Assembly (NCBI GenBank): GCA_963971405.1
Contig: OZ020487.1
Coordinates: 23,793,371-23,857,370 of the forward strand
DNA from: Psococerastis gibbosa
Lineage: Eukaryota; Arthropoda; Insecta; Psocodea; Psocidae
DNA length: 64,000 nt
Reading direction: 5' to 3'
The notes under the pieces are model-generated. The model ran no database searches, was not told where the DNA came from, and was given only the letters and a program-made list of their open reading frames with translations. Of this stretch, positions 9,601 through 62,853 are shown piece by piece; positions within the stretch are counted from its first letter, which is position 1; every line of letters begins with the position of its first letter. Made by a program: the position numbers and the translations under genes.

Positions 9601-11799
9601 CCCCCCCCCCTGAGATATCCGAAATATACCATATATCCATGAAATTACTAATTTTCTCTATCTACTAATTGATAAATTGGAAAGTACGTTCGATTAAACT
9701 CGGACCGGTTCTTTTTATATTCAATACACGTTTCATTCATAATATCCGAAACTATCACTGAGGTCGTTGGCAGGGCAAGGTTGAATGGGCCACTAAAGTA
9801 ACCCTTTCATTATAATTATAATAATGTACTGTAGTATGGCATGGACCCTGATATGGATATTTTCTGGGCCGAGCCTCCGTCACAGGTTTGTTGTTGTGAA
9901 ACTTCTTCATCGGCGTAGGGAGAAAAATCTTTTTACGCGCCATCTTGGTTACGCGCCATCCTGATTTCTGTACTCATGGATGACGCTCATTTTTGGGCAG
10001 GTGTAGAAGGCCTATCTCAATTTAAATTATACCCATGTCTCTTGTTAGCTCAATCCACTTGACCCAGCGGGCCAAGTGAAACGAGCATTTAATAGGAGAC
10101 TACTTTGAATTACAGACAGCATGGGGCCATTTACTCAGAAGCCAGAAAATTGTGTCATCGGATCGAATCGAAACCGAGCCACCCGCTTGTGAGGCTGGCA
10201 TTGTTCCTCGGCACTACCGAGACAATTGCCCCGTTTTACAAGTTTGCCGATACTTCAATCGTCTCCAACCCCCGACTCGCACCTTCCCTTCCCTTCAGTA
10301 ACCTAAGATGTCGACTATGCCCGTTAAATCAGCATTTAGTCTTACGAATTTGATGATTTATTTTATTTATTACTTACTCTAGTTTTTACTTCTATCGGTT
10401 TGGTCTCAAGCCCAAACCAATTTTTCAATATTGGGCTAAAACAAAAAATCGCTGAAGTGGTCCAAACGATCTTTTTTAAATTCACATTGTATCGTCGTTA
10501 TCAATGTGAACAATATGTATAAACAATATAGGCTATATAAACACGAGTGGAACGCAAAATGACGCAAAAAAATTCATTTCCAGCAATCCCATTTGAATTG
10601 AATGGGCGGGTTTAAAGCAATTTTTTGGGCAGATTTAGAAGACCTATCTTAATTTAAATTACACCCATGTCTTCGTCTATTCTTCCTCTTTCATGCCATG
10701 CTATATTTGTGGTGATCAAGCAAGGGGTTTAGCTTTGGGGGTGCGCACGATTTTCAACAAAAATATGCCTCTTTCGGCCGCGTTATTATCTGTTAAAAAA
10801 ATTCAAACTACTTAAGTTAAGGGCTTTTCCATATTTCTTTCTCTTTCCAGCCATATATTATGTAAGTGAAATTTAGTAATTTGGGCGTTGTCACGTTAAA
10901 CTATCGTCTGTAAACCGACTTACAGACAACCAATACAATTAATGAAATGCTATTATAATCTTAGCAACAATAAGGTAAAATAAAATAATTGAATTATTTG
11001 TATACCGGTGCATGTTCATAATAATAAAAGCCTTCTGTTTAAAATTTATCTAATTTAGCTTTACTTAACCAATTTCTGTAAAGTTGTAAATAAATTGTAG
11101 TAGATCATTTTTTGCAAAATGATGTCATATGGAAGTTTCACTTCTTACGTGTGTACACAGAATCACGTACGCTATTTTTTTTTTTTTTTTAATTCTTATA
11201 TTCTCATTCCTTATATGCACCAATAATGGCCCTGATTACACATTCACTTGAAGAAATATTTGGATTGTTTATATTGAATACACGATTGAATCTAAATTTT
11301 TGCTATGGCGGCTATTTCACCGGCGATTTTACTTCATATTTGATTTTGTCATTGACGTTTGTTTTGTTTTAAGGAGACTATTATGTAGATACTTAAGTTA
11401 TCTATTATAAATTAATTTATAATATGGTAGAGACTTATTAATGATGCCTGCTACCATATTATAACTTAATTTATAATAGATAAGTTAAGTATCTACATAC
11501 GATTCGTAATAGTCTCCTTAAAACAAAAGTCAATGACGAAGTCAAATATGAAGTAAAATCACCGGTGGTATAGCCGCCTATCAAGCGTTCCAAATTTTCT
11601 TAGGGGTGAGTAACAAATAAAAAATTAAAGAATCAATTTATTTCAGAATTCTACAAATTTCGCCAACCCTGTATACGAAACAATGTACAATGGAGGAGAA
11701 GAAAAAGCGAACCTTTTAAGTTTTTCAATTAATCAGGATCAGCTGCCACTGAATAATGACATTGTATTCTCACCGCCTTCTTCGTCCCTCCGGCAATAA
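692..11799 (+). CDS. LRP1: LRP1-type low-density lipoprotein receptor-related protein, C-terminal 14 exons (5' partial)
   Basis: Type I membrane endocytic and signalling receptor. Exons: 692-948, 1286-1466, 2079-2228, 2316-2546, 3401-3727, 4004-4249, 4582-4738, 5301-5471, 5782-6014, 6695-6855, 7002-7112, 7543-7725, 8493-8613, 11647-11799 (stop TAA 11797-11799). Phases join to 893 residues. In order: one LDL-receptor class A repeat (about 8-43, ending SDGSDESDC), an EGF-like segment, a degenerate beta-propeller (about 110-440), about eight EGF-like repeats, a transmembrane helix (about 773-797), and a tail with NPMY (819-822) and NPVY (850-853), the adaptor-binding motifs of LRP1. RWRR (215-218) falls where the vertebrate protein has its furin site, so cleavage into two chains is likely (inference). 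The canonical YWTD blades are worn (LFFSEG, LYFVDA, LYIVDR). The 1466/1467 donor (gttggt) is weak. The N-terminal LDLa clusters lie outside the window. Orthology to LRP1 rather than LRP2 rests on the double NPxY tail and the EGF block next to the membrane. Confidence 0.9.
6070..6153. repeat. Foldback family C (GAAACGAACGAAAC) in LRP1 intron
   Basis: TACTATTGGAACAGGCATTG paired with CAATGCCTGGTCCTACAGTA; 84 bp. Confidence 0.8.
7833..7935. repeat. Foldback F (AGGCCCAGTACACA) in LRP1 intron
   Basis: AGGCCCAGTACACATGAACG...CGTCCGTGTGTACTGG...CTGGGCCTTT; paired GAACGATTCGACA / TGTCGAATCGTCC. Confidence 0.78.
9015..9150 (+). repeat. Dispersed repeat shared with 44130-44290
   Basis: Shared order GCTTGGTTAAGTC, GTCTCAGCTTGTC, GTTGAC, CAGTTTGCCA, ACGGAGACAATAC. 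Confidence 0.6.
9190..9540 (+). repeat. Dispersed repeat family A (SVCLSV-like), copy in LRP1 intron
   Basis: Starts near TTGCTTTCCAATTTATACG and continues AAAGCTTTGTGACGGTC, CGTTTTGAGGTCCCAGG, then a (TGTC)n stretch and ACCTCGGGACC. The same order occurs at 13925, 17310, 30640 (-), 42270 (partial) and 56935/59953 (-). Confidence 0.75.
11305..11580. repeat. Foldback element, GGCGGCTATT type
   Basis: Arms ATGGCGGCTATTTCACCGG and its inverse CCGGTGGTATAGCCGCCTA enclose an inner hairpin with AAGGAGACTATTATGTAGAT. Sits 66 bp upstream of the last LRP1 exon. Confidence 0.85.
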
Positions 11800-13924
11800 T
11801 GTCAAATTAGTCCATAAGTTGTATAGGGACAGTACATATATAGGTTATATGTACATATACAAATATTGTGTAATGTTAGTGATTTTTCATATTAGACCTT
11901 GCTATTGTCAGTGGCTTAATGCCTGTGATTTTATACGAAAGAAACTGCATTATTATTCTTCCGTGATATTATTGTAATTCCAAGGATGGAGTTTTTATTT
12001 TGGGCTGGGCAATTACCCCCCCCCCCCCCCAAAAAAAAAAAATCTTCGAAAGAACTGAGCTTACTTTTGTGACATTACTATCAGTCTATACTTATGAAGT
12101 TAGTCCTCTTGTTATGTGTGCTGTCTAATGTGAATCTCATAAAGGTTGTATATATAGGTTGTCATTTAATTTTTCTTATACTGTTGTCTATAGATTATTA
12201 GTTGCGGTAGTCCCAGTCTGAGGCGCATCTAGCTTTCTTTCATCCAAAAGAATTAACGGTTACCTTAAATAATCGAGTTTTAAGGAACCGTGATTTGATA
12301 CCTTGCGACATGTATAATACCTAAAAAATTAAATATTCCTAAGGATTGGCTTACGAAAGAAATGTCAGTCACCTCTTTTGCATTTTATGAGATGTGAATG
12401 ATTTTAATGACTTTAAGATGGAGATTTCCAAATATATTGTAAACAAAACAGACTTGAGCATTTTTGACTAAATTAATGAATTCCTCGCTTCACAACTGCA
12501 AAGATTAGGAAGTTCTTATGAAAAATTCTTAAAAAAAAAATACAGACTTTCTAAAAAAAAATTGTCTATTTAACCGTCTATTCTGCAAAAAAAATTTAAT
12601 GCACTTTTTAGTGTTTTACTAGACATAACTCAGGTGCGAAAGTGCTAATTTACTGTACATTACCTGTATTTTTTATGAACTTTTCACAAGACAATTTTTC
12701 TATCTTGGCGGCTGTGAAACAAGATCTTAATTGTTTTATTCAGAAATACCCAAGTCTGGTTTGTTTACAAAATATTTGAGAATCTCCGCATTAAGGCTCC
12801 CATTTTTTAAATTGGTAAGTTCTCTTCACTTTGAAAATTATGGTTATGGTATAATCTGATAATAATATGGAAAAGACTTTTTACACCATTCATTCCTAGT
12901 AGTAAGTAGTACCGTACAATATTTGTTTTGGTTAAATACCCTGCTCAGTAAGGATTAATTTCTACGATTGTTCCACTTCTTGTAACAAATATGCTGACAT
13001 TATAACAGCATAACTACATAGAAATGTACTATGTTCACATATTAGACGTGAACAGTTTGAGATGCCTATTTTATTTTATTTTATTATGTAACAACGTACC
13101 ACATTCGTTTGCTGGAAGTAATAACCACGATAATGTCTACATACATATAAACTCTTTTATATTGTAGTCACTTTTATATTGTAGTGACACGCTATTTTAC
13201 TAAGTTATGAAACTTGTAATAATTAAGAGCAGTAAGTAGTTTTTATTATGGATTCTATTGTTTGCCCATTAATGTTGGGAATTATCGTATAAGGTCTGCT
13301 ACTGATACTTTTAGTAAGATAAATTACCGTACATAACTGTATGTACCCACATAATAAAATTCTCTTTAGTCTCTACGAAAACCGATGGTGTGCCAATTTG
13401 ACGTTATATACCTCATGTTTTAATACTCTTATCACTGCAAGCACAATATTGTAGTTTTACAATAGTTAGGGCCTATTTTTAGCAACTTATACCCCAAAAT
13501 ACTCAATTGCAATAATTTTTTTAAACCACCACTTTTTATTATGCTGTATTATTTGTACGGTATCTATAGGTTTTATACGGTTGCGTTAGAATATTCCCAT
13601 CTTTTTTAGCTTTAATTTTTTTTATATATATATATACACATTTTTAGCTTTATCATTGAGCAGCTCGTGCACGTTTTCGTGATATTTTGTAATTGTTTTT
13701 TTATGTATACCTGACTGCACCAATAATTTATATCATTTTATTACGTGTAATTTTGTTCCTTTTATATTTTGTTATAATCGGTACAGGTGAGTTAGGAAGA
13801 AAATATTGAATCAAATACAGTTCAAGTGTATTACTACGAAAAAGTACCTATCTAATTTCTATGTTTTATGTAATTAGTATGGCTCGTTATATTCAGAACT
13901 CTAGTAATTAGTAAATTAGATATT

Positions 13925-14520
13925 TATTGCTTTCCAATTTATGCGTAGTATTATGAAAGATTTGTGATGGTCGAAATTTTCGATTTCGGAACTTAGTAAA
14001 TTTACATGTTTTGAGGTCCCGAAAACCCAAAAGTGTTTTTTACGTCAATTTGTGGGCAAACTACTCGTTGGATTTGGTGAAATTTGGCATGAAAGTTCAC
14101 AAAAATCATACCTCGGGACCATTTTTTATTTTTTTATTTTGGGGGATTTAACATCAAAATAATGACTAAAAAAAATATTTCTCTAAAACTGCTTCAACTA
14201 TTTCTTTTCAATTCACATACATTGTAGTCGTTATTAATGCGAACAAAATCCAATCGGTCACTTTCCCCTTGATAGTTTGGTAAATGCTCAAGTTTCATGA
14301 AAAATTACTACAAAATAATTTTTCTGTTGAACCTTTCTATCGATGCTTTCTTACTTCATGTATGTTTTTGGTGTTAAATATAGTAACAAAACCGAGCCAG
14401 TTGCTATCCCAAACAAAGATTTGGTTTTGAACAAAAATTAATTTTTTGGAGATATTATGGATAATTCATGCCCCAATACATAGCGTAGCATACCCTGCCA
14501 CTATTACTGTATTGTATCGC
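13925..14520 (+). repeat. Family A dispersed repeat, longest + copy
   Basis: Same landmarks (CCAATTTATGCGTAGTATTA, CGTTTTGAGGTCC-like, ACCTCGGGACC), then the downstream half with CCCCTTGATAGTTTGG and TCATGAAAAATTAC. Confidence 0.75.
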
Positions 14521-14664: not shown

Positions 14665-14890
14665 TTAAGCGGCTATTCCACCGACGTCGAATTTGAATGT
14701 GAATGTGTTATGACGTGGTAGCAGACATCATTAATAAGTCTCTGTCATATTTTAAGGAGACTATTATGTAGATACTTAACTTATCTACTATAAATTAAGT
14801 TATAATATGGTAGAGACTTATTAATGTTGTCTGCTAGCACGTCATAACACATTCACATTCAAATTCGACGTCGGTGGAATAGCCACCTAA
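14665..14890. repeat. Foldback element, core GTGGTAGCAGACAT
   Basis: TTAAGCGGCTATTCCACCGA at the left, GGTGGAATAGCCACCTAA at the right; about 85-bp arms with GACGTGGTAGCAGACATCAT and a central AT loop. Confidence 0.88.
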
Positions 14891-16860: not shown

Positions 16861-16884
16861 TTGGTCTCATTCTATATCCGCACC

Positions 16885-17010
16885 TGCAGCCTGATCAAGG
16901 CGATTATAATACCGGTATTTATTTAATCCCCTGGTATTAAAAATGTAAACAAGATAATTTTATAATGGAAAGTGCTACTGAAAATTATAATCGCCTCGAT
17001 CAGGCTGCAG
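16885..17010. repeat. Foldback family B (CAGCCTGATC), deleted copy
   Basis: CAGCCTGATCAAGGCGATTA...TAATCGCCTCGATCAGGCTG, with most of the second arm's inner part missing. Confidence 0.8.
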
Positions 17011-17034
17011 GCTGCTTATGCTAGTATAAGGAAA

Positions 17035-18745: not shown

Positions 18746-21700
18746 CTAAAACAAATTTGTCTGATCGGTCACACTACTGGAAATATCTTGGCAAATCTTT
18801 GAGTCGCTCATTTCGACAGCTAACGCTTCTATGATGTCTAGTAGCAATTCACGAGGCAGAGTTTTCATTTTGGGGAGCTGAGCAACTTTCGGAAAATTTT
18901 GAACGATCAACCTCAGTGCATATTTCTTCGTGTCTGTCGCAGCCATGCAATTGGCGGCCTCAAGAATAGGAATAATATGCTCAACCTTGACATTCATCTC
19001 CAAGTTTTGCTTGCAGAAAGCATGGAGCCTGTCACTAGAAAACCCGTAAAAGAACGTTGCGGAGAAAAGATATAAGGAATCTTCGGGAGGCATATTAATA
19101 TCTCCATAATAAATATATCGGAGTAATGAATCGAAAGCCTGCCTAGAGGGTACAATCTCCCCTATTTGAATATTGACGATTTTGTCGGCGGGCATAAATG
19201 AACGGAATAAAGCCTGAAAATACGCACAACGCGCCGCCAAAATAGCTTTGTGGGCTGGTACCTGAACGTTTTCTAGTTTTAGCACTATATCGCAGAAATC
19301 TTTGCCTTCGCCATAGAGAAAAGCTTCCATATCTTCCTCCAAGCTCGTCCCTGACGCCTCAAAATGCTGTTCAATTAGCGAACGTATTTGAGGCGATTGC
19401 TGTCTTCTTCTTATTATCTCAACCATAAGTTCACGCTCAAGATTTTCAAACTCTTCAGTCATAACAATAAGGGTAAAGTTTGTTTCTTTAACAGTGAACT
19501 TGAGACAGTACTCCTTTAAATAGAAGAGTTTAAGGGTCGTTGCGTATTGCAGTGCAGGAAGAACATTTTGATGGTTTATAGTGTTCTCCAAGTACTGCGT
19601 ACAGAGCAGCTCGAGACGTTTCATTTGGAATTCGCAGGCAAGCCGATAAACATCCATCATTAGTAAGACAATCCGATTAGAGCCAGGATTCTCCACCTAA
19701 AAGCATTTCAAATTAGTTACTTTATTTAGGCGGATTATAAGAAATAAACTATGCTCAGCATTTACTGCAACAGTTCGTCCGATATCAAAATTGATTAAAA
19801 GCAATTTTCTTTCTATCTAAAAATCGAGGAATTTGACTCCATTTACACTCAAGTCAAGAATTAATCAAGTTTATTTAAATAAACTATAATAGAATATGTG
19901 GCACCTAACCATAAGCCAAGTAGTGCCGATAGTGGTGAAACGTATGTGGAAATGGCAAAGGAAGCGTTTCCAGGTTGTACAAAAAAAAAATGGCGGCAAA
20001 TGAACAATTCAACCATCCCGTGGCTGTAGACCGTTATCAATATGGCTGCTAGTGGTAGCCTGCAAAAGATAAGTACGCAATTTCGCTGGGAAAATAGCCT
20101 GCACAAGCTAAGTACAAAGTTCTGACCGGGTCCAGGTATCCGTTCTGCTATGCTGCAATGTGTAAGACTTCGATATTTTTTACGTTGGTACTTATCCCTG
20201 ATAGTTGGCTTATGGTTAACGGGTGCCCCCGTAAGGGATTTTATGGGTCCCGCCGTTCCGGTAAATATATTTCTATGAATTCAACAGACTGGGCTGCCAA
20301 CAGAATATTGACGCATTGGGCTTAGGCGGCTATTCCATCGACGTGGATTTTGAATGTGAATGTGTCATGACGTGGTAGCAGACATCATTAATAAGTCTCA
20401 ACCATATTAAAACTTAATTTATAATAGATAAGTTAAGTATCTACATAATAGTCTCCTTAAAATATGGCAGAGACTTATTCATGATGTCTGCCACCACGTC
20501 ATGACACATTCACATTCAAAATCCACGTCGGTGGAATAGCCGCCTTATGACAAGAACCCCCCGCTTAGGAAACGACTTTTTCCGCTTCACTGGATGCGCA
20601 AGCAATGCATTTTTTTATTGTTAGACCCAAAGGAGGTTTCAACTTCTCCAGTTAGATTACTAAATATTACTACATACTATAAGATACTTGAATTTTATCT
20701 AAATATGTTTAGATATATGGCACTTCATAATAAAATAGATTACACTTCACCTGTCGCGTTGGATCGATCTTGTCTGTATAAATGTAATTTAGAACCATCA
20801 TGAACGCCTCCGGTACAGCTTCAGGTAGTCGTACTTGCAAGTGTGGAAGATCTTTTAAAGGAACCTCTGCAGTTCCAAAGAGCTGCTCCAGACGTAAGTC
20901 TCGTGTAACTCGACACTGCCTTATTTTTTCTGCCAGATGCCTGTGCCAAAGAACGATCCAAATAATATAAATAATAATGAAGTAAAAACATTAAATAAAT
21001 AAATCCCTTTAGTCATGGCTATTAATTGTAGGTAGGAGAGAGGTATATGAGACTGCTTTCAGATATACTAGTAGTAGTGATACTTGGGAACTATAGTATT
21101 ATACAAACATAGTAAGCTAACAAATGCAAATGTTTCGCAGGAGATGCAGGCATACAGCCATAGTAGATAATTATTTTAGCATTGTGTGAATAGTTTATGG
21201 GTTCTAACCATTACATTGAATTCCAGTTATCTAAATCTCATTAAAGCTACTGGATGAAAATTGTACTTATCAGTCAAGCTAAGTAAAACTAATAGCTTAC
21301 TTCGACCGAGCACAAACAAGGGCAAGGTGAGCTTCTACATGAACTTCACCAGGGCCGAGTAAAAACTCCACGTCCCACAACTCTTTTTTTTCCAAAATAT
21401 TTCCAAAGTCTTCATGAAGTGTGCATTTTGGATAAGATGAAAATTTGAATCGGAACATTTCCCCGCTACGGACATTGTTGTCTACAGTACCACCGAAGAT
21501 AAACATAGCGTCACCAACACAGGCTGTAATATAAAATATAGAAAACATCAGTGAATGGCGACGTTTACATCAACCATATTTACATTTGTATACTTTGAGG
21601 CTTGCCACTTTCAAATTGTACTTTTCAACTATTGTAATTATTGTGGAATAACTAGTCATTTTAAATACGTTTCTATACGGAAGTACTGAATAAACCCATT

Positions 21701-24700
21701 TTTATTGAATTAACGTTTATGCCTGTGATGCATTCGAATACAATTGCCCCTATTTAGACATAATGAATGATAATTAACTTTTTTTATTTTTCCAGCAATA
21801 TTTTTTTAGAAATAATTTTACCTGCAGCATGAAACAACCTTCCACTAGGAATCTTCGTATCTGTGTTAACGGTAACCACGGACCAAATTTGGTTGTCCAA
21901 GTCGTAGCAATGTAGATCATTTGGTAGAGTAGCGTCAGCGGCTCCTAAAATAATTCTGATCCATTAATTACGTCTTTTCTCATACTAGCTCATACCATGG
22001 ATTAAGTTTCAAAGTGCTTTTTAATTCATTTTCAATTATAATGACAAAATAGGACACTCCTCGACATGTTCTCACGTTTCCGATCTGCTGCTAGGGTCAT
22101 CGGGTTTTGGTTACCATTTGCCAACGACAAGCACAATGTCAGCCATGCGGTGTTAGGCAAAATGGGCACACCCATGTACGCCTTCCCCGTAAGAAGCCCT
22201 ACTGAAAACAATATATATTTTTTCCATGCACCTCCAGTATATAAAATTAACAATAAATTTGTTAAGTATTGTTATATGTTACATATTGTTAAGACAGTCA
22301 TCACATTATTAAAGGCAAGCTGAGGACCTGGGAGGAATATGCTCAAAACCTCTTTGACTATGAGAGAAACGAGGAACATGGAATTGAATGCGCTGCAGTC
22401 AAATAAAATAAATGCAGCAGCAGCCTGATCGAGGCGATTATAATACCGGGGTTAAATAAATACCCTAGGAGTATAACTGTAAACAAACAAATTTTGAATA
22501 GCACTTTCCATTATAAAATTGTCTTGTTTACATTTTTATTACCAGGGGATTAAATAAATACCGGTATTATAATCGCCTCGATCAGAAACAAATTATATAC
22601 TGTAGTATACTTCTCAAATATTCCATGTTCCGGTTACCATGGTTATACGATTGTTATTAAGATTTTCATAATACAAAGTGCATACAATCTGTGTTCTGAT
22701 TTAATATTAATAACCCACAAAAGATATAACAGTTGGCAACGAGGATGGGATTAAAGTAGTAAAAAAAATTGAACATTTTAGTTGTTTTACGTTTTTGATT
22801 TGTTGGCCATGGATGCCGAACAATTTCAAACATTTATGGACAGACGCAGACGCAGATGTTTGATGCACTCATCAAGGCGCAATTGCATAAAGGTGGTAAG
22901 AACGCGCCAACACATATTTCTAATTTCGAATCTTTCGACTCATCAAAAGAGTCTTTTGACAATTATAAAAAATGGTTTACGAACTATATCTCGCTAAAGG
23001 GTATCAAAAATCAGGTATCAAAAATGACCCTGCATGCTGTGCAAAGGTTCTTTTAAATTCAATTGGAGCAAAAACGTTTGAGACGGTATCGTCGTTAGTG
23101 GCACCGAAAGAGTTGAACCATTTCGATTATAAGGAGTTGATAGACATTCTAGAAAAACATATATCTCCAAAGCCCAATTTCTTGGTTGCGCAGCATCAAT
23201 TTTTAACTCTCAAACAGAGTGATAATCAATCGATAGCAGAATTTGTGGCTGTCCTACGTGCAGATATACCAGAATGTCCATTTAAAGTGACATGTCAATG
23301 TCCGTGTTCTTGTAACACACCGAGCAATCCTTCTGACATATTCCTTCGATCACAGTTTATCAGGGGGGTAAAAAGCAACGTAATGCGTGAACAGCTTCTC
23401 CAGTCTGAATGTGACAACTGTACTTTTAAAGACGTTATCGACAAGGCTATTGCGTTGGAGCCAGCAAAAGCCGACTCAAGTATGCTAGAGCAAGCTTTGG
23501 CGGAAATAAGTGATATCAATCAGGTGAAGAGCCGACATTGGCCGAACCAATCAATAAATAGATCTCAACCGCGCGATCGATCAAGCAGCAGACCCAGAAC
23601 TTCTCTCCGCCGTGTCCAGTCTGGAGTGGACTACAAGGAACTGGGTATCGACGGACTCTGTCACCGCTGCGGTCGCAATAATCACCAGGCCCCACAGTGC
23701 AGAGTGGATAAAAACAGGCTGTCGTGTAAGAGTTGTTCCAGAACCGGTCATGTACAGAAAGTATGTATTAGTGCGTTAATAGGAGGTACTTCTGGAAAGC
23801 GGGCTGATAATCAAGTTAAAAATCTAAATCTATGTACAGATGATGAAGATAGACAATATCGCCTGGACTACGGGGTGAACACCGTTCTGCCATTGGCTGT
23901 GCAGTGCAATCTCGTATCAAGTTTCGATTATAAGGTGCAGTGCAAAAAGGGTGACGATAACGCAGATGCAGATTGCCTATCTAGGACACCCATCGAATCA
24001 ACAACAATCACGGATGAAGATATTATAAAGCATCAAAGGACTTTCATGAAAAATCGAACGCCAACATTCATTGTGGGAGATTAAATCTTCGCCAGGTATT
24101 ATTCGTCGAAGAAAGAGTGGTGGAAGCCTGGTACTGTCATAAAAAAGTTCGGAGTACTCCATTACCTCGCAAGATTGGAAGATGGATCCCAATTAAAAAG
24201 ACACGTAGATCAACTTAGAGGTGCTCCATCCAACCACTAGAAGGACAAACAACCGAAGAAGTCCGTAACTTTCGCAGACAAGTCTCTACCATCGAAAATC
24301 AACCGAGAGGAAGAATTTTATGGAATTCCTGTTGGCAGAGAGCCAGGTCCGATCGAGGAACCTCTCGACGAACAGGCAGAAGACGGTCGCCAAGAGCATG
24401 GGGAAGAAGATAACGAACAACAAATTGAAATGCCTGATGTCGAACCCAATCAAAATGTGCGAAGAACAGGACGTATCACAAGAAAACCGAGCCATTTTAA
24501 AGACTATGTTTTGAATTTTTCTTAAGGGGGGAAAATTGTAGTATACTTATCAAATATTCCATGTTCCGGTTACCATGGTTATACGATTGTTATTAAGATT
24601 TTCATAATACGAAGTGCATACAATCTGTGTTCTGATTTAATACTAATAACCCACAAAAGATACAAAATATACAAACCTCCAAAAACATATAAATGGCGGT

Positions 24701-26609
24701 TATTTGCTATCATTGTGTGTCCATAGCGTCTCGTAGGTGCAGGGGGCGCGCCCCTTAAAATATGATCTGTGGAGATTTTTAGCCAAGTTAGGGTGTCAAA
24801 ATGGAATTGAAAAAGATTGTTAGTTATTTTGGCGCCACTCTGACCGGAAAAGACAAACATGCAGCCTCGAGCAACTGCTACTGGAAAGTTACAACATGTC
24901 GGTGGACAGTCACCATCCTGTGCAACTTCAGTCCATTGTCTTTTCTCTCCAGTCAATGGAATCGTCCACATATCATTGAGCCTGGCGTTTCCATCGTACC
25001 TGAAAATAAAGACAAATTTGATGAAATGCTATGGAAAAAATGTAGAGCTCATGCATGTAGGATGTGCTAAGGGGGGGGGGGGACAACGACCTCAATGGGT
25101 ATTATGAATTAGCATAGGATTGACCTCCAAATATATCGTAACAGATGCAAGGGTTCTTTCTTCCCTAGTCTGGCACTTCAATGCTTTCTGCTGGTGTTTG
25201 TTAGCGTATAGTATAGTACAATGGGAAGGTCTCCAAACTGTCTCTCACTTAAGGAATTAGGGGCACGGTATATATTGTACATAACTTATAGTATTCAAGA
25301 TAATACCCAAGAAGTCCTACATAAGATTAAAATTCAAATTAACAATTGATAGAAGTCCAAACGTTTTTGCCTCCTATGTGACGAAAATTAATGTATTAAC
25401 TTAAGTTACGGTACCCTGCAAAAATCCAAAGCTTATCATCATATACAACAGCGCCATGTGCAGATCTAGCAACTGGCGTTTTTCCGTTAAAAGACAATTC
25501 ACTCCACTGTCCATTGAGAAATTTATACTCATGTAAATCATTCTTATTTGTGAGATTTGAATTGGAATGTATATCGCCGGTGTAGCCTCCAAACACATAC
25601 ATTGAATTTTCATGAACTACCGCAGAATGATGGTACCTGTAAAAAAGAAGCGAATCCTCTTTATTTTTAACGTAAGCTTCCAATAAGGTACTTTCTGGGG
25701 CCATGCCAGTGGAACACCCTAATGTACACTCTGTTCGGGAGTCTACTTTTTTATTGATTAACAATTCAATTCTGATCGTCCGGATTGGGCCTTAATTCAA
25801 TGAAATTCTTCTCCCAGACTTTGATGTTTCTTTATGACAAAGGGTGCATTATTACCCAGCTATTAGTGCAGTCTGTGTATCTTTTTGGATAGTTATTGTC
25901 TTTGAAACATGTTATTATTTATTAACATCACAGGTCACAGATCTATCATATGATATATACAATTTAAATGAGCCAAATCTTTAATAACTTGCGTAATTAA
26001 TTAAATAAAAAATATTAAATTTCGGGCTGCCAATTTCCTACGGGACGTACACTCATAATATTATGTTGTTAACTACCTAGGAGCTGGTGGTGAGCCAGTA
26101 GCAAACGCACGCCCCCATGACTGTTCCTTCACATCAAAGCGAACAAGATCGTTGAGCATGCTCTTTCCATTATCTCCTCCAAACACGTAAATTGCATCCT
26201 TGTATGCGACGACTGTGTGCTTACTAAAATTTAAAGTATCATACCATGAATAAATATACTATAGGTCTAATACGCAACTAATTTAAGATAAATAATATGA
26301 AAACAGATAATATGAATTAAATTTGACCTAGCAAGGGCAATTTTCTTCAGCAGGGGCAGCAACAGCTAGGCTATTATGTAAGGATTGACTTGTGGCATGG
26401 TTAGGAAAGACCTTCCAAACTATAATGCGTTTGTCATCAAAGTTTATTATTGGTTAGCCACGTTAATTTAGCAAATAATCGTACCTTCTCTTAGCTGCTA
26501 CAAAAGGGGCGCACTCTGGCATCTCTTGCCATCCGTAAGCATTTTCATAGCGACCATTGAAATCAAAGCTGAATATATCTGTCGTTTCGGTGACATTATT
26601 ATCAGACAT
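18746..26609 (-). CDS. LZTR1: Leucine-zipper-like transcriptional regulator 1 (kelch/BTB-BACK protein), complete
   Basis: Known family role: substrate adaptor of CUL3 ubiquitin ligase that restrains RAS-family GTPases on endomembranes. Exons in transcript order: 26485-26609 (ATG 26607-26609), 26077-26223, 25415-25636, 24677-24999, 21822-21944, 21301-21523, 20751-20940, 18746-19696 (stop TAG 18746-18748). The sum is 2304 nt, 767 residues; human is 840. N-terminal kelch blades include [55 protein letters not shown] and [14 protein letters not shown]. The first BTB-BACK begins near residue 355 ([23 protein letters not shown]), and the second BTB carries FRSFMPADK and [11 protein letters not shown]. 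The acidic linker seen in vertebrates between the kelch and BTB regions is short here. The intron at 21945-24676 holds an LTR retrotransposon whose right end reaches the splice donor. A TTTATT at 18157-18162 (AATAAA on the - strand) is a candidate poly(A) signal. Arranged head-to-head with the ENT4-type gene. Confidence 0.95.
19880..20010 (+). repeat. Dispersed repeat shared with 48775-48900
   Basis: Shared AAGTANTGCCG, GTGGTGAAACGTA and GGAAGCGTTTCCA followed by an A-run. The 81-codon - strand frame here is part of the repeat. Upstream of LZTR1 exon 8. Confidence 0.6.
20332..20547. repeat. Foldback element, core GTGGTAGCAGACAT
   Basis: TTAGGCGGCTATTCCATCGA...GGTGGAATAGCCGCCTTA. The central loop is inverted relative to the 14665 copy. 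Confidence 0.88.
22421..22585. repeat. Foldback family B, 15 bp from the LTR element
   Basis: CAGCCTGATCGAGGCGATTA / TAATCGCCTCGATCAG with ATACCGG and TTAAATAAATACC in the arms. Confidence 0.85.
22601..22731 (+). repeat. 5' LTR (131 bp)
   Basis: Same length and start (TGTAGTATACTT) as the 24537 copy; only a handful of mismatches by eye. Confidence 0.9.
22734..22748 (+). other. Retrotransposon primer-binding site
   Basis: TGGCAACGAGGATGG two bases after the 5' LTR. TGG is the complement of the CCA end of a tRNA; which tRNA cannot be told here. Confidence 0.7.
22809..24525 (+). pseudogene. Broken gag-pol of the LTR element
   Basis: The first ATG (22809) opens a frame that shifts twice before about 22975. 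The longest open stretch is 22972-24084. Visible parts: a gag capsid-like region ([16 protein letters not shown]), two zinc knuckles ([14 protein letters not shown], about 23660-23700; [14 protein letters not shown], about 23727-23770), then a jump to an RNase H-end motif ([10 protein letters not shown], about 23950-23985). After an in-frame stop at 24082 comes an integrase C-terminal stretch ([20 protein letters not shown]). Frameshifts and missing domains make it non-autonomous. Confidence 0.88.
24524..24536 (+). other. Polypurine tract of the LTR element
   Basis: A/G-rich run (AAGGGGGGAAAATT) immediately before the 3' LTR, in the position used to prime plus-strand DNA. Confidence 0.75.
24537..24667 (+). 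repeat. 3' LTR (131 bp)
   Basis: Partner of 22601-22731. Followed directly by the TATAC target duplication, then the LZTR1 exon 4 donor region. Confidence 0.9.
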
Positions 26610-39415: not shown

Positions 39416-39768
39416 ACTGCCCTACGGATTTTTAATAATGTGTGTATATCAATCTGACCGTTTGCATGGTGGGGGTGGTCGTACGCAAGGGTTTAAAAAT
39501 TTGAAAAAAAAAACATGAAATCGAGCGCGTCATTAATACACATGGTTCGTCTTTCTGTCCTAGACGTGCTGCCTCATAATCTGACAATTATCAGGAGGGA
39601 TCTGCTTAATCTGACAATTTTTGTACAATAAAAAATAGATTTTTTTAAATCGCTAAACTTAATTAATTGAAAATCTCGGGATATATTAAATATAATATTG
39701 TATTATAGTAATATTAATAATATTAAATAGTAAATATTTATAAACTTTAATTCACATAACTTATATTA

Positions 39769-39986
39769 AGGCGGCTATTCCACCGACATCGTTTTTCATT
39801 GTGCATGTGCATGGCGTGGTAGCAGACATCATTAATAAGTCTCTACCATATTATAACTTAATTTATAATAGATAAGTTAAGTATCTACATTATAGTCTCC
39901 TTAAAATATGGTAGACTTATTAATGATGTCTGCTACCACGTCATGCACATGCACAATGAAAAACGAAGTCGCTGGAATAGCCGCCT
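39769..39986. repeat. Foldback element, TTTTTCATTGTGCATGTGCA arm type
   Basis: Preceded by TTA, ends CCGCCTAA; same arm family as 49646-49869, with the shared inner loop. Confidence 0.88.
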
Positions 39987-40178: not shown

Positions 40179-40254
40179 AGGCGCATATTCCACCTACGTC
40201 AATAGTCAATACCACATTTACTAATGATTATTGACGTAAGAGGAATATGCGCCA
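40179..40254. repeat. Short foldback element without the core
   Basis: GGCGCATATTCCACCTACGT / ACGTAAGAGGAATATGCGCC; 76 bp, terminal type only. Confidence 0.75.
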
Positions 40255-47314: not shown

Positions 47315-50300
47315 TTATATTTTAACGGCATGCAACTTCCTGTTGAGCTCTTCAAACTTAAGTATTTTTCGAATGAAGAAGTCTGCGTAGCGGTGAGCAA
47401 CTTTCGTGTCAGCGATGTGAATCATATCACCATCAATGTAGAAGTCAAGCTATGGATAAAATATGGCAAGCATTAGCAAAACAATTAAGTCCTTGAGCTG
47501 CGTTATTACAGTATATAAATAACTGTATAATAGTTATTTTATGACATTATGTTCGCTTAATTAAAATTACATAACGTTCGTTCACAACTTCACATTTGGA
47601 ACTACAATAATATGGGCTAATATCGGCCTGACACGTTTCGGTTTTCTTCACGTATGTATGTATATCGGTTTTAGGAAACACTAACTTCCACAGACGTTAT
47701 CCAATTTTGATGAAACCTGGCACAAAAATGTATCATACTAATTTCTTGATCGAGTTCGTTAACCAGATTTTTAATTGGCTGTAGCAATTAACCCGATTCT
47801 TTGGTGTTCATTATTTGACTATATATTTATTCCGCCTATCCTGATTAAGTTAGTAATATTACACGTATATCTCTTATATCTGCGTTTAACTCTAGTCCCA
47901 CTTACGGATATTTGTATTTATTAGAACAGTATAGACATTTTTTTAAAGTAAGTTCATAGTCGTCTACATAGTGTTGTAAAAGTGCGGAAGCGAAATATGT
48001 TCTAGTGTACTTTAATGGTGCAATATGTTATCATTTACGTATAAGGGAAAGAGAAACTTCCACCCTGAGAAGTGGGATCGGTGCATTTATGGAATCTCCG
48101 GACATCTGATCAGCCAAAGCCGAAAGGGATTTTTATTTTATAAAGTGCCCAACCTACCTCAGAACCCGACGCGAATTTGCCATCAAGACCCGAAGTCCCG
48201 CGTGTCCACACAACATTCTTCATCTTGTGTTTGAAGCTGAGTAAATGAATGGTCAAATTTCTTATTTCGCGGTCCACATCCCAATCGTCACTTTTTCTGG
48301 ATGACTGACACATAAAGGTCACCAGCTTCATTAATGGAAGGGTCGTGTAAAGCTTCATATAGCTGAAAACACAAACATTTATAAAATTTTAAACACCATA
48401 ATTTATTTTCCTTCTTTTATGGAATGAAAAATGTTTTCAACAGCTATGGCGCTTCTTGATATGGCAGTGTTTGTAGCCAATGAACAATGTGATAGTTTGT
48501 AGAAAATAATGCATGCAGCGCCATGGTAGGAGAACAATCTGAATCCTGTGCATTTTAAGTTGCTAAGATTTGAAGTTTCAGCGTCCGAGCAGGAGAGTTT
48601 GGGACGATTATTGAATACGGTACAAGGACAAATGATTCCACTAATAAATCTAGGCCTTCTAAATAATAATTTGTTCTTAATGATACAAAATTGTTCCAAA
48701 AAAAGTTTTAAAAAAGGGTATGCATTAAGGTAGTATGGCCGGGTCGACAAGTAACGAGCAAACGGTAATAAAATAGAATAGATGGCGCCCAACGATAAGC
48801 TAAGTATTGCCGGTAGCGGTGAAACGTACGGCGAATGACAATGGAAGCGTTTCCACGTAGGCTTCCAACGTAAAAAAAGAAAATAACGGAAAATTAAAAA
48901 CAATTCAACAGGCGCATTTGACTCGCAACCTAAATATCTTGCTTTTGACTGCGTTAAACTTATGGCGAGTACCATTAGCTTACACGAGGGAACTACCGCG
49001 GAATCGTTGAGTGACTCAGCTCCGGATGGCCCTCCAGCCATATTCGATAGAGCCGCGCCCAACACGATTAGAAATGTTTCCTTGAGAGATGTCATGTTCC
49101 AATGCATGGCTGTGCCAACAAGCATTCTTTCCCGACCTCAGTCAATAATACTGAACGTCACCTCTGTGCATTGGTCGAAAGAAGTGCTGTCCTTTCCACG
49201 CGTTAGTGGGACCAGGCGTTATTACCTTTTTTTTGCGCGTTTCCCAATCAGAAGACGGATTTTAGATTTTTGTTTAAGCTTCCGTGTCCTCTTACTGTCA
49301 CCCTTCTGAGCCTTTGGAGAACTGAACCTTCTTTCTAGCCATCATTACTTCACATAATTTTGGCTTGCTTGCTTGCTACAGATTTAAAGTTTAAAGTTAA
49401 TTGAGATCATACCTGCGAATGGTAGGCAGCGTCTTCTGCTGGCGAACTTCGTCCATGAAGACTTTAGTTTGGTGCTTAATGGCATCTTTGACGTAGTCGT
49501 CTATTGCAGCGTCAGGTGGAGGTGGTGAAGGCGACAAAAACTTGGGGCAAGCCATGACAAAGCAAGCTTCAAATTCCTGCAATAAGTAACAACCCACTCA
49601 CAGTAACAATAGGCTTTCCAACTAGAGTAGACAGATTTTTCTCCTTATGCTGCTATTCCACCGACGTCGTTTTTCATTGTGCATGTGCATGACGTGGTAG
49701 CAGACATCATTAATAAGTCCCTGCCATATTTTGAGGAGACTATAATGCACATACATAACTTATCTATTATAAATTAAGTTATAACATGGTAGAGACTTAT
49801 TAATGATGTCTACTACCACGTCATGCACATGCACAATGAAAAACGACGACGGTGGAATAGCCACCTAATACAATAGAATTTTACGTTTACCAAGCTGTCC
49901 CTGCAACTATCAGATTCATTTCCGACCATTTTCCTATCTTTGTGGCTTTGAAACGCATAATTAATTAATGTAGTCAGAAATATTTGGAAACAGTAATAAC
50001 ATTTATTAATAACAGTATTTATAATAACTAGTGGACCTAGGCGAACTTCGTGTCACATCCCCCCCCCCCCAATTAATTAATTTAATTTTAATTTAATATC
50101 GTTTATGTTTATATGTTAGTAAATTTTAGTTTAGGGACTATCTGGAACGTCCCCAGAAAATTCTACCAATATTTCTTCACTATCTGATCAGTGGTTTCGG
50201 CGCGCATCGAATACAAGTGAAGTAAGAAATAAGAGTGAACCCGTACATGCTTTCCTATTTATCGATTAGTATAGGTACCTTTCATGAAGCAGTAGAATTC

Positions 50301-53300
50301 GGGATGGTGGGACGGGGAACCGGGGTTGAATAAAAAAAAGCAAAAAGGTAGGTACCAGATGCAGGTGATCGTTGGGTTAGGCTCAAGGTCGTTGCCTAGG
50401 GTTGGGGACGAGTGACTCACTGTTTTCTACTATCAAGGGTATTCATACCTTTCTCAGTCTGTGGCCAGCAGGTAACTGGTGAAACTTTTATAATGTACCA
50501 CTTATCACCTTAAGAAACGATGCTGTATACTAACTTTTATAAAAAATAAATAATAATAATAAAAAAAATATGCGTTCACTTACTGCTTCATCACCACACT
50601 GCATTTTGAACATTTTTTCATTGTACTGCTTCTCGCGAAGGACTTGCTGAATTGATTCATCAACGCATTGAGGATGCAACACCAAGCAGATTGCCAGCAG
50701 GTGGTACATCTGGTCAGTCTGCTTATTTATCTGAATAATGAAAAAAAGCAATGAGCAAGTGCCAGAGCGAAATATTTCGCAGGTAGACTTTGATAGGCTT
50801 ATATAATACTACTAAATACGTATTTACCAGTCAATTTTTCTCAATTGTTATGGGGAATTTCGAAATAAGGTGTATAAAATATAATGACAACTTAGAGGTC
50901 GAAGTTTTCTTTAGTTGAATTTAATAATGCCCGGTACACTGCAAAAGAAAGTTTCTAGGTATGTCATTTGCAGTTTTTCTATTCTATATCAACGGATAGC
51001 TCTTTTTAGGCACACGGTAAGTGATTAATAAATTTTTGGCATAATGGTTGTGACAAATTTATTATTTGAAGAATGGGGCCCATAAAAGGTTCTTTGATAT
51101 GCAGCTGGACTAATTTGAAATTTGAAAATTCCGAGATACCCTCAAACTCCCCTTTGCAGTAGGCATATTTTAGGAACTGCTCGTGCACAATTTTTGGACC
51201 ACCTTCAGGTAGTGTAACTATTCAATGTCTTAAAATTGGCTTTTCTACCTTTGTAGTCTTGTAAACTTACTTGGTCATTCTGATAACTGCGGGCTTGAAA
51301 AAGTTGCTTCGTTCTCTGAATGTAAAGCAGAATTGAACTGAACGTACGGATGGCGTCTGAGTAGCGACGCATCATCATGTAGGCAAATCCAACGAAGTAA
51401 CACGTTGAGATCTGACAAGCCGGAACGTGAGAATATTGGCTCTGTAATAAGATTCCTCATATTTCACTTGGGGTGGTGAATGTGTTATGGCGCTTATTCC
51501 ACCGACCGGCTAGGGCTAAATACAAACACGGAGACGTGGTAACAGACATTCAAGGCTTAGGCGGCGTTTCCACCGACCTCGCATTGCAGAATGCAAATGA
51601 CAGTGACGGAAATGGTTGTTTTTCTTTTTATAGAAATCTATTAAAATGTTTGTAATTAACATATCCCATGACGCCATTTTTTAATTTTAGTTAGTTTGTT
51701 TGTGATTTCACTCTATGATCATTGATCAATTTTAACTATTGCATAGAGTAAAACAAACATTTCCGTCAATGACACTTGCATTCTGCAATGCGAGGTCGGT
51801 GGAAACCCCACCTAAGTCTTGAATGTCTGCTACCACGTCACCGTTTTTGTATTTAGCCTTAGCCGGTCGGTAGAAACCCCGCCTATGCAAACGATTTGAA
51901 TAGGATACCATAATATGAAAAGAAAATCAGCTAGAGCAAATTACTGAATTAGAGATTAAGCTAGTTTGAAATAGTATTAAAGTGCGATGAAATAAGTCAT
52001 TAAATGTTGGGTACATTGTTTATTAACAAAATGAATTTATATGTAAATGCAATAGAGGCATGAGTAGGTGAGTTCCTGGAATGAAATATTTCATAAAAAT
52101 ATTATATTTTAAGAGAATATTCTCACTTTTTTATTATGAAGCTCAATATTCTCCAGAACTTTGATGGCTTGGTAGTAATCCCCCAGGAGGGAATGAAGTC
52201 GCAGGAGTCCAACGAGACTGAAGTAGCCAAGCATCTTGTACAGCGAATGTCTGCCAAACTCCCCAGCAACCGAGTCAGGATCGCCTCCGCTAGCGTACAC
52301 CTGTAAATTATAATTAAATTTCAAACAAGTTACCACGTACTGTAAGGCATTTGTGCATGCATTCTCATTTGAAAAACAGCTCTTTCATACAAGTAACATT
52401 CCGTTATCATGCAGTGCCATACAATAATAATAACAATAATAATAATGCCTTAAATAATATAATAAAAAAAATGCACCGCGACACCAAAAAGACATTCACT
52501 CGCTGTTCAGGTTTAATGTGCCATACTATACCTCGAATAGAATATGAAAATGTGCATTTTAGAAAATTTGTTTAAAAAAACATTGGGCAGTTAAGTTTAC
52601 TAAATGAATAATATCTTCAACAGTTCGAAATAAGCGTCGTTAGCTACTTGCGAATCTAAATATAGATGTGGACTGAACAGGAGCAGGGAGTCATACGCCT
52701 TTAGCATAGGGAACAGTTTGAATTCCACTCCGCTAGGTGGAATAGTACTTGGTTACGATTGGATGTCGCAACTTGGAAATTGCAAGTTAGCCTAAAGAAT
52801 AGGTATCTGACATTTTCGCATAGGTTCTTGCAAAATAAAAAAGTAAAAATACTACAACTAGCAAAAATTTCATGCTTTAAGTATTACACTACAGCCGTAA
52901 AAAATGGAAAAATGGAAAAATAACACCTCAAAGGGGAGAGCAGAATTTAATTAGGCTTCTTTGTTCGTTCTGGGTCTCGCCTTGCCCCTTATTATTCAGA
53001 GTAGTGCCTTTATGCTTCATGGTCAATGTCACAACCAGAAAAATGCTCCACCCATCTTAATGTACTCGAATATGTAATACAGTATGTGGCAAATTACCTC
53101 AAGCTGTCGCTTGATGTTCGATTTCTCAACAAGAGAATGAAGAACATTTAGTACGCAGAGCACATTCCACACTTTCCCGTTTTGATTGATGGCCTCTAGT
53201 TCATCGGCAGTTTTGTTATTAAGCCGAGCTCGGTACCACGTAAACGTTTGAAATTGATAAATAAACTCATCCACAATTTCCCAAAGCCACTGGTCCGGTA

Positions 53301-56300
53301 ATTCCAGCGGAATAGGATCCTGCGCCCCTGAAAAGAAAATTGTCAGTACCACTTGCAAAATTAATAGCTAACTGCTATTTACATAGTACTAATTTATACC
53401 TTTAAAAAACTGCAAACGTACCCAATATTTGATTGAAGAGATCGCAATAGTTGTAGAATGAATTAAATCGCTGCTCCAAATTGGGACCCATAGGGATACG
53501 CGCGTAGATATGACGGAAGTATAATTCCTTATAGAGAACCAAAAACTTCTAAAAAATGAAGAAAAGATACAGTAAATTCGAGTATTTTTGTAGCGTTTAT
53601 GTTAATTCGACGGTTTAAATTCGCTAAGAAATAGTGAGAATCAAAAAAGCAACAGTGATACCCTACTTTTCTTTGGGTTCCAGTTGACGTCTAAAATCAT
53701 GACACAAAACATTAACAGAACAATGAACTGAGAAAAATAACATTTTGTCGTGTAGGATAATATTAAAAACTGCTAAAAATCAAATGGAATAAGGCAGTAT
53801 TTCCATAATCCAGCTCAAGGGATCCGGATGCACAGCAATAAGTCATTGTTCTACTGTCCAAATAAGTTCTTAAAGCAGCCTAAGGTCTCCTTGCACTTTG
53901 AAGGGAATCGCCTGCATAACCAAATAAGTTGCATGCGTTTTAATCAGGTCTAAGGCGGGGTTTCCACATACGTCAATGGTCAATGGTAAATGTGATATTG
54001 ACGTTTTAGCAGACATTAAAGACATACTAAAAATGTCTGCTACCACGTCAAAACCATATTTACCATTGACCATTGACGTATGTGGAAACACCGCCTTACG
54101 ACCACTTGGCACAAAGCCCAGTGAATGTCCACTACAAAATTAGAGAAGGGGACATCAACTACAAATACAAGACAGATATGTTGTTTCTAACGCCTGCTTT
54201 CAGCATTTCTGCTTTTTAAGCAACCCTGTCAGCCTGGCGGGGGGAGTGAGTCTGTTTGTTAACTTGAGGCACCCTAAGGGCAGACTCTATCACCTCGGGG
54301 AAAGGGGAGTTGACTAACAGGGTGGACCTCCTGATTATAGTGGATTCCGAACCACTTGGGGAACATGGTAAAGTCACACGATTAAAGCGGAGGTGACCAG
54401 GACTCGACTTATACTGCCTAAGCGCGTTATCATGTCCCACCAGGTTCCCCTGCCAACGCTGTGCACACTACCAAGTTGCCGCAGTTTGAAGCATGCTCTG
54501 CTCTAATGGAATCAACATGGTAAGGCCGTTGGCACAAGCCAGATATGTATATATGATCCAATGCTCTGTATGGTGATACGAAGCATAAGTAAAGTATGGG
54601 AATGGGCCGCACCAATCACAGCCAACGGAGGCCCTCCACGATTTTATATATAACAGTTCCCCATTTCAAACGAACTAGTTAATCACTCACAACTTATTTT
54701 TTCCTCCCTGCTTCCTTCTCTATTTCATTTTAAGCATTTATCAATAATACAATTTTTTTAGGGTTAGCATGAAAAGAAGACTATAAAGTCTTATTGTTTT
54801 TTGTTTTCAATAAAGTCGTTTTTCAATTTCTCCTGAGTTGAACTATACGTTACGGCAGAAAAATCGCGGTCTTCAAAATGATTTATGCATTCGTCTATAT
54901 CATTCGTAAGATGATTGTTGATCGCATTGCACTTGCACAACTAGCTTCAGTCAACTTACCGTGCTTTTTCTGCTGTCACGCATGTTTCAACTCAAGAGTA
55001 GTTTACCAATAACAATGACATCTAAATAGATCTAAATTATTATTATTATTCAGTTAGTTAACAGTTTTACATTTACTTACAGCGTCATTATCAACTAGAG
55101 GTGCAACTTCCGCCTCATCGGGCCACAATGACTTGAAGAAATAATCCTCAGAAATCTTGGGAAATGTATTTTCATACATGTTTTGAATTTCATAAATATT
55201 TCCTTTGTTTATGACGGTGCGGAAGTAGGGAAGGAACTTCTTGACCACTTCTGGTATAGAAGTATATCCCCGGTCTCCATACTCGGCGTCTCCATGACGG
55301 TCAGCGCCATGTTCATAATCTTGCCCACCATACCCATATCGCTCATCATCCTGAAACATTTCCACATGGCAGCTATTCCACCGAAAAATTTGCTTCACTA
55401 ATCGATGTGCCGACGTGGTAGCAGACGTCATTAATAAGTCTCTGCCATATTTTAAGGAGACTATTATGTAGATACTTAACTTATCTATTATAAATTAAGT
55501 TATAATATGGTAGAGACTTATTAATGTTGTCTGCTACCACGTCGGATTAGTGACGCAAATTTGTCGGTGGAATAGCCGCCTATGCCAGCGCTTCCGAAAC
55601 TATAGGCCGCCAAGGGTTCACTCCGACCTCCTATTTATGTGACCGGACCTTCTAATCGCTGTTATATTTAAAAAATTAGTACAGAAATGCAATTCATTGA
55701 GAACCTGATTCACGGCTGTATTACCAAACAGATCAACATAATTCTTTACAAATCTCTCTTCTGTATTGCAGTTACGCCTACAGCGAGCGCAAAATGGGTG
55801 GGTCCGCTTCTGCTGTTACATTGCATTCAAAGCTAGGGTCACCCCTTTCTACAAACAATTGTCCTGGCTGAAGCATGAAGGGAGACGAGCCCTCCACCTG
55901 GGTGTGCTCGTCTGCAAAATAAAAAATAACTCCACCTTACTTCAAACAGAACTGCAATAACCTCTCTAACCGTACCTACAACACCAGAAGTGATCATCTT
56001 TTAGCCATTCCCCACCACAATACACATATGCTTCATTCATCTTTCCTGGTTTCCTCAATTATACTGTTTAACTCAATCCCCCGTTATATTCTAGATTCGC
56101 CGTCACTAACTGCGTTCAGGTTTCAACTCAAGGAGCATCTAATTTAAAATATTACATAGGCTAGGATTTATTCGAACCGCCACCGCCCCATGCTAGTGTG
56201 CGTGAGTGTATTAGTCTTGACGATGCCTAAAACTAAGACGACATGCCTATTCGGTTGGCTTAGCTAAGACTGGTGGAAATACTGAAATGCGGAAATATAG

Positions 56301-62078: not shown

Positions 62079-62369
62079 TAGGGGGGTATTCCACATACGG
62101 GGGGTATTCCACATACGTACAACGTCAATGAAAATTATGAAATTGATGGTGGCAGCAGAATTTTTAGTATGTAAAAATGTCTGCTGCCACCATCAATTTC
62201 ATAATTTTCATTGACGTTGTACGTATGTGGAATACCCCCCTACGTACAACGTCAATGAAAATTATGAAATTGATGGTGGCAGCAGACATTTTTACATACT
62301 AAAAATTCTGCTGCCACCATCAATTTCATAATTTTCATTGACGTTGTACGTATATGGAATGGGGGCCTT
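62079..62369. repeat. Four-armed palindrome of CACATACGTACAACGTC foldback
   Basis: Arm order forward-inverse-forward-inverse: two head-to-tail foldback units sharing a junction at about 62225-62245. Arms are identical over about 60 bp. Core GGTGGCAGCAGA. Confidence 0.85.
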
Positions 62370-62478
62370 ACACGCACATCACGCAAGCTCTGAAAATACA
62401 CGCATTTCGTGATTTTTCACGCAAAACGGCAACCCTGCCACTCACGCGCACACCACAGAGTATCATAAGTTCATTCGA

Positions 62479-62762
62479 GATTCCATCAACGTCAATAGTG
62501 ATAAGGCCCCATTCCACATACGTACAACGTCAATGAAAATTATGAAATTGATGGTGGCAGCAGACATTTTTACATACTAAAAATTCTGCTGCCACCATCA
62601 ATTTCATAATTTTCATTGACGTTGTACGTATGTGGAATGGGGGCCTAATGATGATTAAATGTTTTTGACGTGGTAGAAGACAGTTTTAGACTGTCTAAAA
62701 ATGTCTGCTACCACGTCAAAAACATTTAATATCACTATTGACATTGATGGAAACCCCGCCTA
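62479..62762. repeat. Foldback with a second foldback (62504-62647) inserted in its left arm
   Basis: The outer arms pair ATTCCATCAACGTCAATAGT with ACTATTGACATTGATGGAAA and contain GACGTGGTAGAAGACAG. The insert AGGCCCCATTCCACATACG...GGGGCCT splits the left arm after AATAGTGAT; TGAT is repeated at the right junction. Confidence 0.85.
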
Positions 62763-62768
62763 TGTTGA

Positions 62769-62853
62769 ATTTTCCATCGACCTCGCTTTTGATAGCTACC
62801 GTGATATTGACGTGGTAGCAGACATTAAAGACAGTCTGAAAATGTCTGCTACC
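62769..62853. repeat. Truncated foldback of the core family
   Basis: Left arm CCATCGACCTCGCTTTTGAT with GACGTGGTAGCAGACATTAA. The right arm stops after AATGTCTGCTACC. Confidence 0.75.

Follow-up and report, generated by a model that had tools for sequence, protein, structure and literature searches.

Harbinger-like hairpin elements with modular arm turnover and non-matching flanks in the genome of Psococerastis gibbosa

Introduction

Tourist-like miniature inverted-repeat transposable elements (MITEs) of the PIF/Harbinger superfamily, such as those of the mPing/Pong system, are non-autonomous, have GG-type ends and are flanked by a 3-bp target site duplication (TSD) of the form TWA, where W is A or T. 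In foldback (FB) elements a short loop lies between long inverted repeats; their duplications are longer, and they contain internal tandem repeats. Here we describe a superfamily of hairpin elements in a 64,000-nucleotide stretch of the genome of the insect Psococerastis gibbosa (contig OZ020487.1, positions 23,793,371 to 23,857,370; hereafter the window). These hairpins share the TSD and ends that begin with GG with the mPing/Pong group, are probably non-autonomous as well, and likewise yield evidence for a 3-nt 5′ overhang carried along with the element. Unlike mPing/Pong, they fold into a long hairpin that is nearly perfect and contains a conserved inner core, and in one family the flanks fail to match in 30% of the TWA-flanked copies counted. 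Like FB elements, they have extended inverted repeats around a short loop; the longer duplications and internal tandem repeats of FB elements would set the two apart.

Harbinger-type elements are described as having 3-bp TAA or TTA duplications and GG(G/C)CC ends (PMC4423477), and an extended target preference beyond the TSD is reported for PIF/Harbinger (PMC2836001). Yeast assays of rice mPing in which the flanks were artificially made not to match prompted the proposal that a 3-nt 5′ overhang lies within the TSD; repair was more precise for TAA/TTA than for TTA/TAA donors (PMC4561436). A targeted-insertion study of mPing states that the flanking TTA derives from the donor (PMC11254759). The coral CMITEs resemble our elements in having a conserved interior across families with different terminal repeats, and in the origin of a new element by MITE insertion. 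Unlike our elements, CMITEs are about 100 bp long, flanked by TTAA and linked to piggyBac (PMC2872659), whereas the hairpins retain their extreme ends and, as a rule, the core, with paired changes in the arms between.

Results

Hairpin elements were taken from the window, from seven stretches picked independently of the core (L031-L037) and from loci retrieved through exact core matches, beginning at the start of contig C1 (L001-L030), the last being a part of the sample that is not random. Both ends were readable in 44 elements, 24 of them composites, in which one hairpin encloses a second element, and 20 others. Dropped from the counts were loci whose elements are already represented at neighbouring loci (L003, L010, L012, L015, L022, L026, L029), copies without a readable end (L002, L004, 62479, 62764) and the inner elements of composites, which have one ancestral insertion in common. 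Identical flank pairs were found in 28 of the 44, against 10.6 by permutation. They comprise TAA (10), TTA (8), ATA (4), TAT (3), TAC (2) and TTT (1), so that 18 are TWA. A further eight of the 44 pair TTA with TAA, and another eight are otherwise mismatched, six of these with TWA on one side. A 2-bp TA duplication is ruled out because TAA/TTA, TAC/TAC and TAT/TAT flanks cannot arise that way. The original prediction, made on this stretch before the present analysis, proposed Harbinger-like 3-bp TWA duplications and a tabulation of the flanking trinucleotides; the identical pairs and the genome-wide counts below bear out the duplications, and the TSDs prove consistent rather than lacking consistency.

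The genome-wide flank counts cover composite-family copies with exact ends only. Matching TTA/TTA or TAA/TAA flanks occur in 1,296 + 1,245 = 2,541 copies, TTA/TAA flanks in 421 and TAA/TTA flanks in 680, which makes 1,101 of 3,642 TWA/TWA pairs (30%) non-matching. The sample gives 8 of 26 such pairs, four in the composite and four in other families. Mutation is rejected as the chief cause, as pairs of the TTA/TCA and TTA/TGA type, with their reverse complements, number only 95 with one of two arrangements counted (190 if doubled). TAT/TAT or ATA/ATA flanks are found in 310 copies and TAT/TTA or TAA/ATA flanks, which are two substitutions apart, in 65; there is a single TAT/ATA copy, ATA/TAT not having been searched. 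The base outside the TSD is discordant between weak (W) and strong (S) pairing in 320 of the 680 TAA/TTA copies, close to the highest value that independence allows (50%), and the palindrome therefore does not extend outward.

The core, 17 nt long, has 25 matches in the window at up to 3 mismatches, where 0.14 are expected and none of 100 shuffles reached 25. Across the genome (409 Mb, 68 contigs) it has 24,722 exact sites, 12,309 forward and 12,413 reverse, compared with none for a reversed control; in viral_contigs it has no exact match. Elements taken by their ends or inverted repeats number 22, comprising 15 window entries (including the nested element 51560-51812) and seven in L031-L037, with the truncated core-bearing copies 62479-62761 and 62764-62857 excluded. 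The core is present on at least one arm, at up to 4 mismatches, in 19 of the 22. Those without it are the foldback at 40180 (flanks ATA/ATA), L035:2948-3386 (TAA/TAA) and the inner element of the composite. Because three of 22 elements lack it, the core is common yet dispensable for having moved, and the earlier suggestion that the mobilising machinery recognises the core is not supported.

Conservation differs strongly from one part of the element to another, contrary to what a single ancestor diverging evenly along arms and core would give. In a set of 45 arms, the distance from end to core is 44-48 nt in 38 of the 42 that bear a core; a few ends in this set are placed 1-2 bases off, with the affected distances still 44-48. 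Across 13 arms chosen as representatives, end positions 1, 4, 9-13, 17 and 18 are invariant and positions 5-7 are the most variable, with 6-7 of the 13 agreeing. Set against GG(G/C)CC (PMC4423477), the first G is present in 13/13 and the second in 12/13 of these arms, with positions 3 and 5-8 varying; the end consensus in the compared arms is GGN6TTCCA. In the 12 arms where the core could be aligned, agreement is 9-12 of 12 over the core and the two preceding bases, compared with 5-8 of 12 in mid-arm. The comparisons of arms, loops and spacing thus uphold the proposal of one superfamily with conserved core and ends and turned-over arms. By eye, several arms, among them arms of 53954, L024 and L032, start with ACGTCAAT or a near variant and carry its inverse, ATTGACGT, at the core, and a single arm of this type could fold into a small hairpin.

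The turnover is clearest in five window elements that share a loop of 94-96 bp, loop A, at 90-98% identity. Arm type a1 is found at 14668-14887 (plus strand, mixed flanks TTA/TAA) and 20325-20544 (minus strand, TSD TTA/TTA). Type a2, at 39770-39985 (minus, TSD TAA/TAA) and 49648-49865 (plus, mixed flanks TTA/TAA), is 70-75% identical to a1. Type a3 belongs to 55368-55580 (plus, flanks CAT/TAT), whose arms match those of the other four at 0.41-0.53, the level of shuffled sequences (means 0.48-0.49). Its loop, by contrast, has 93-98% identity to theirs (98% to that of 14668; 96-98% against 14668, 20325 and 39770). Left and right arm segments within a copy agree at 1.00, 1.00, 0.96 and 1.00. Of the roughly seven unrelated arm types first proposed, some do fall at the shuffled level, but several are graded relatives. 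Paired change is seen elsewhere too. AAATAC/TTTAC, CC/TT and TTTAC/TTTCC differ among composite subfamilies on both outer arms; each arm of L035:2948-3386 has, by eye, lost 9 bp from within the core; and a body 79% identical to the inner one of the composite is flanked by 28920-type arms, the core being shortened in each. One-arm hybrids exist in the composite family (L033, L008, L028). In the foldback 11307-11578 (TSD TAT/TAT; one degenerate core with 4 mismatches), the right half of loop A stands beside an inverted copy of itself, and by eye this loop has been re-palindromised.

The composite consists of an outer foldback, with a palindromic loop CAAGACTTA/TAAGTCTTG, that encloses a second element, which has GG..TTCCACCGAC ends of its own. 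Among L001-L030 a copy occurs at 19 of 23 distinct loci, one of them truncated (L004). Together L001-L030, L031-L037 and the window hold 24 copies with both ends at distinct places; the same nested junction recurs at many sites, and therefore the nested pair was amplified as one unit. Insertion of one element into the loop of another made the composite, which then amplified. The window contains a diverged copy at 51489-51883 (minus strand, flanks TAT/TAT), whose loop centre (CAAGGCTTA / TAAGTCTTG) contains the inner element at 51560-51812 (minus, flanks TTA/TAA; own GG..TTTCCACCGAC ends, no core). Twelve composite copies carry TT on both arms. The GGT end lies to the same side of the inner body in 11 of them, six in one orientation and five in the other, and L006, the remaining copy, has no GGT end. 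Loop inversion or rearrangement is rejected on this constancy, and the two loop orientations remarked on earlier (14665 vs 20332) reflect nothing more than the orientation of insertion.

Transposases of the DDE_Tnp_4 type are abundant in the genome. Of 220 candidates, 150 were scored and every one of these is a match; equal scores and open frames are frequent among them. Myb matches are also present. The locus C2:19671200-19675800 (L038:1-4601) is an ISL2EU-like transposon with several near-equal-scoring open copies; it carries a foldback of the hairpin superfamily at 3136-3297. ISL2EU elements make 2-bp duplications, which TAT/TAT pairs and a self-insertion flanked by TAC/TAC do not fit. CACTA/EnSpm is excluded by its CACT(A/G) termini, as the compared arms end in GGN6TTCCA, and piggyBac or CMITE by its TTAA duplication, as the 3-bp duplications here include TAC, TAT, ATA and TTT.

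An inverted-repeat search of the window found 28 pairs of at least 40 nt. The 25 longest include the foldbacks at 11307, 14665, 20324, 28919, 39280, 39766, 49645, 53951 and 55410, as well as 51497 (outer and inner elements jointly) and a group at 62099-62647; those at 62479 and 62769 lie outside the 25 longest and were located through core matches and other comparisons. The window total is 17 foldbacks of one superfamily. Fifteen correspond to the hairpins of the original prediction, all of which belong here as judged by ends and/or core, and two, 40180-40253 and 62099-62240, are additions to it. The 15 window entries cover 2,681 of 64,000 bases, and the seven elements in L031-L037 cover 2,522 of 70,000.

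Besides the elements already placed, the window has short-loop foldbacks at 28920-29062 (ACGTACAACGTCAATG arms; TSD TAA/TAA), 39278-39417 (flanks TTT/TGC) and 53954-54095 (mixed flanks TAA/TTA). The coreless foldback 40180-40253, with TSD ATA/ATA, is only 74 bp long. The foldback 62081-62367 (TSD TTA/TTA) hosts a self-insertion, with a copy of its own family at 62099-62240 (TSD TAC/TAC) within its arm; joining the flanks around the insertion gives 142 bp, 136 of which are identical to the neighbouring copy. Another member of that family, 62505-62645 (TSD TAA/TAA), is nested in an interrupted host foldback, 62479-62761, whose left end is damaged and start approximate (core pair 62668-62716). 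A truncated short-loop foldback follows at 62764-62857 (core pair 62810-62857).

Other features lie between the hairpins. A second foldback family is found at window positions 16883-17011, 22425-22585 and 37339-37511 and at L036:2-172, with GCAGCCTGATC[AG][AT]GGCGAT near the ends in common. Long imperfect inverted repeats at window 32533-32922 and L035:6536-6897 have GAGGACATGCTACGTAGAAAAT in common. An open frame at 22969-24084 appears gag-like, with a CX2CX4HX4C knuckle recognised by eye; it has no Pfam match at E 0.01. On the minus strand, 18746-19696 and 24579-25028 encode BTB and BACK domains together with kelch repeats, the latter giving an Attractin/LZTR1 propeller match that falls below the cut-off. 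We read these two segments as a candidate LZTR1-like gene, and the foldback at 20325 lies near it.

Discussion

These elements look like Harbinger-type hairpin MITEs; their modular turnover is confirmed, and their genome-wide flank signature is the most useful new result. The best joint explanation, to which we give a probability of about 0.68, is a PIF/Harbinger-like superfamily of non-autonomous hairpins with carry-over of the donor overhang, paired arm change and an amplified composite. The hairpins would be moved in trans by a PIF/Harbinger-like transposase, an assignment that draws on the duplication and the ends because the transposase loci read gave no matching partner. For the non-matching flanks, the best fit is a 3-nt overhang of the donor travelling with the element, as inferred for rice mPing. 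The transposase may cut the 5′ strands at a point 3 nt beyond the element, in which case the excised element would retain the 5′ TWA overhang of its old site, and this overhang could pair with the 3-nt overhang of the target at the new site. Where the two overhangs differ, each end would resolve either to the letters of the element or to those of the target, leaving a non-matching duplication. The observed flank pattern is what the mPing overhang geometry predicts for natural insertions. No description of naturally occurring non-matching flanks in this superfamily came to light in that part of the open-licence literature that was examined.

Several observations weigh against this explanation. 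A carry-over model in which each end retains the donor letters with a fitted probability of about 0.37, donors being half TTA and half TAA, expects 91 copies of the TAT/TTA type and 65 are observed, and the excess of TAA/TTA (680) over TTA/TAA (421) has no explanation. A yeast study reports normal TSDs at its mPing insertions (PMC10288884). No autonomous element with matching ends was found in the three transposase loci read, so the proposed search for a Harbinger-type transposase with these ends came up empty for those few loci. Two of them, L038 (THAP, DDE_Tnp_4, YqaJ) and L039 (DDE_Tnp_4), look ISL2EU-like, and the sought ends were not seen around the transposase. The third, at C20:13193900-13199150, we read as a decayed HARBI1-like fragment facing a Myb_DNA-bind_4 domain, with no matching terminal inverted repeat in the 1.5 kb read; an 80-residue fragment of it has no Pfam match at E 0.01. 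The arms within 55368 agree at only 0.70, and in a weak test that excludes 55368, mismatches number 1/106 within copies and 8/106 between copies of the same arm type (p = 0.035). Finally, the 53954/L005/L020 family has fixed differences between left and right arms, which means that homogenisation is not continuous, and the TT subfamily retains its GGT/GGC asymmetry.

Other routes to the non-matching flanks are improbable. After insertion, the hairpin ends might template each other and turn TTA/TTA into TTA/TAA or TAA/TTA; such pairs are indeed palindromic where matched TWA pairs are not, and the arms themselves change in pairs. Correction of this kind should have produced about 67 TAT/ATA copies (310 x 1,101/2,541 / 2), compared with the one found when ATA/TAT was left out of the search, and it cannot yield TAT/TTA, of which there are 65 with the reverse complement. 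The bases beyond the TSD are also non-palindromic, both in the 320 discordant copies of 680 and in the sample, where two of eight are complementary, and we consider this the least probable of all the readings. Recombination between copies could instead join the ends of different insertions, and hybrid arms such as those of L033 and L008 exist. The fitted re-pairing model, however, needs 65% of copies to have recombined and expects 207 copies of the TAT/TTA type and 19.5 of TAT/ATA, against 65 and 1 observed, making this route very unlikely as well. As to the enzyme, a 3-bp TSD is common to Zator (PMC10045372), a further point against a Harbinger assignment, and no Harbinger partner with these ends turned up in the loci read. 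A transposase of Zator or another superfamily with 3-bp TSDs has some claim but is unlikely, since the TWA preference and the GG at the start of the ends are in keeping with Harbinger (PMC4423477) and DDE_Tnp_4 transposases are abundant in the genome, although the two families read look ISL2EU-like.

The arms raise a separate question. They may simply be ordinary family differences, in which case each type would be an ancient lineage having a transposase of its own, and loops and cores would be shared through descent only. That several types are graded relatives is consistent with this, and fixed arm asymmetries are what plain inheritance inside subfamilies would give. Yet loops 96-98% identical between arms at the shuffled level (55368 vs 14668, 20325 and 39770), and conservation so uneven along the element, make such a history doubtful. 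Paired arm change, as we prefer to read the data, would leave the stretch between end and core free to vary in both arms together, the simplest cause being that one arm would serve as template for the other while the element, folded as a hairpin, is replicated or repaired. Swapping of arms by template switching is plausible. In view of the fixed arm differences and the GGT asymmetry, the arms seem to be replaced as a matched pair in the intervals between bursts and to be inherited afterwards. A broader proposal is that the hairpin itself drives evolution: a change in one arm, or a fragment captured there, would be copied to the other by template switching, so that both arms could be replaced at once, with ends, core and loop kept and new families founded, while, separately, the insertions would log which flank letters came from the donor, so that thousands of strand-transfer events could be read. 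We put this forward tentatively, with less than even confidence.

The carry-over of the donor overhang by mPing has been inferred from artificial flanks and targeted insertions. The natural insertions in P. gibbosa make such carry-over countable, and the chemistry of cutting and joining thereby becomes testable from sequence alone. Replacement of the two arms in concert, with the loop and core retained, is relevant to the origin of MITE families, and the nested composite indicates that one insertion can found an abundant family.

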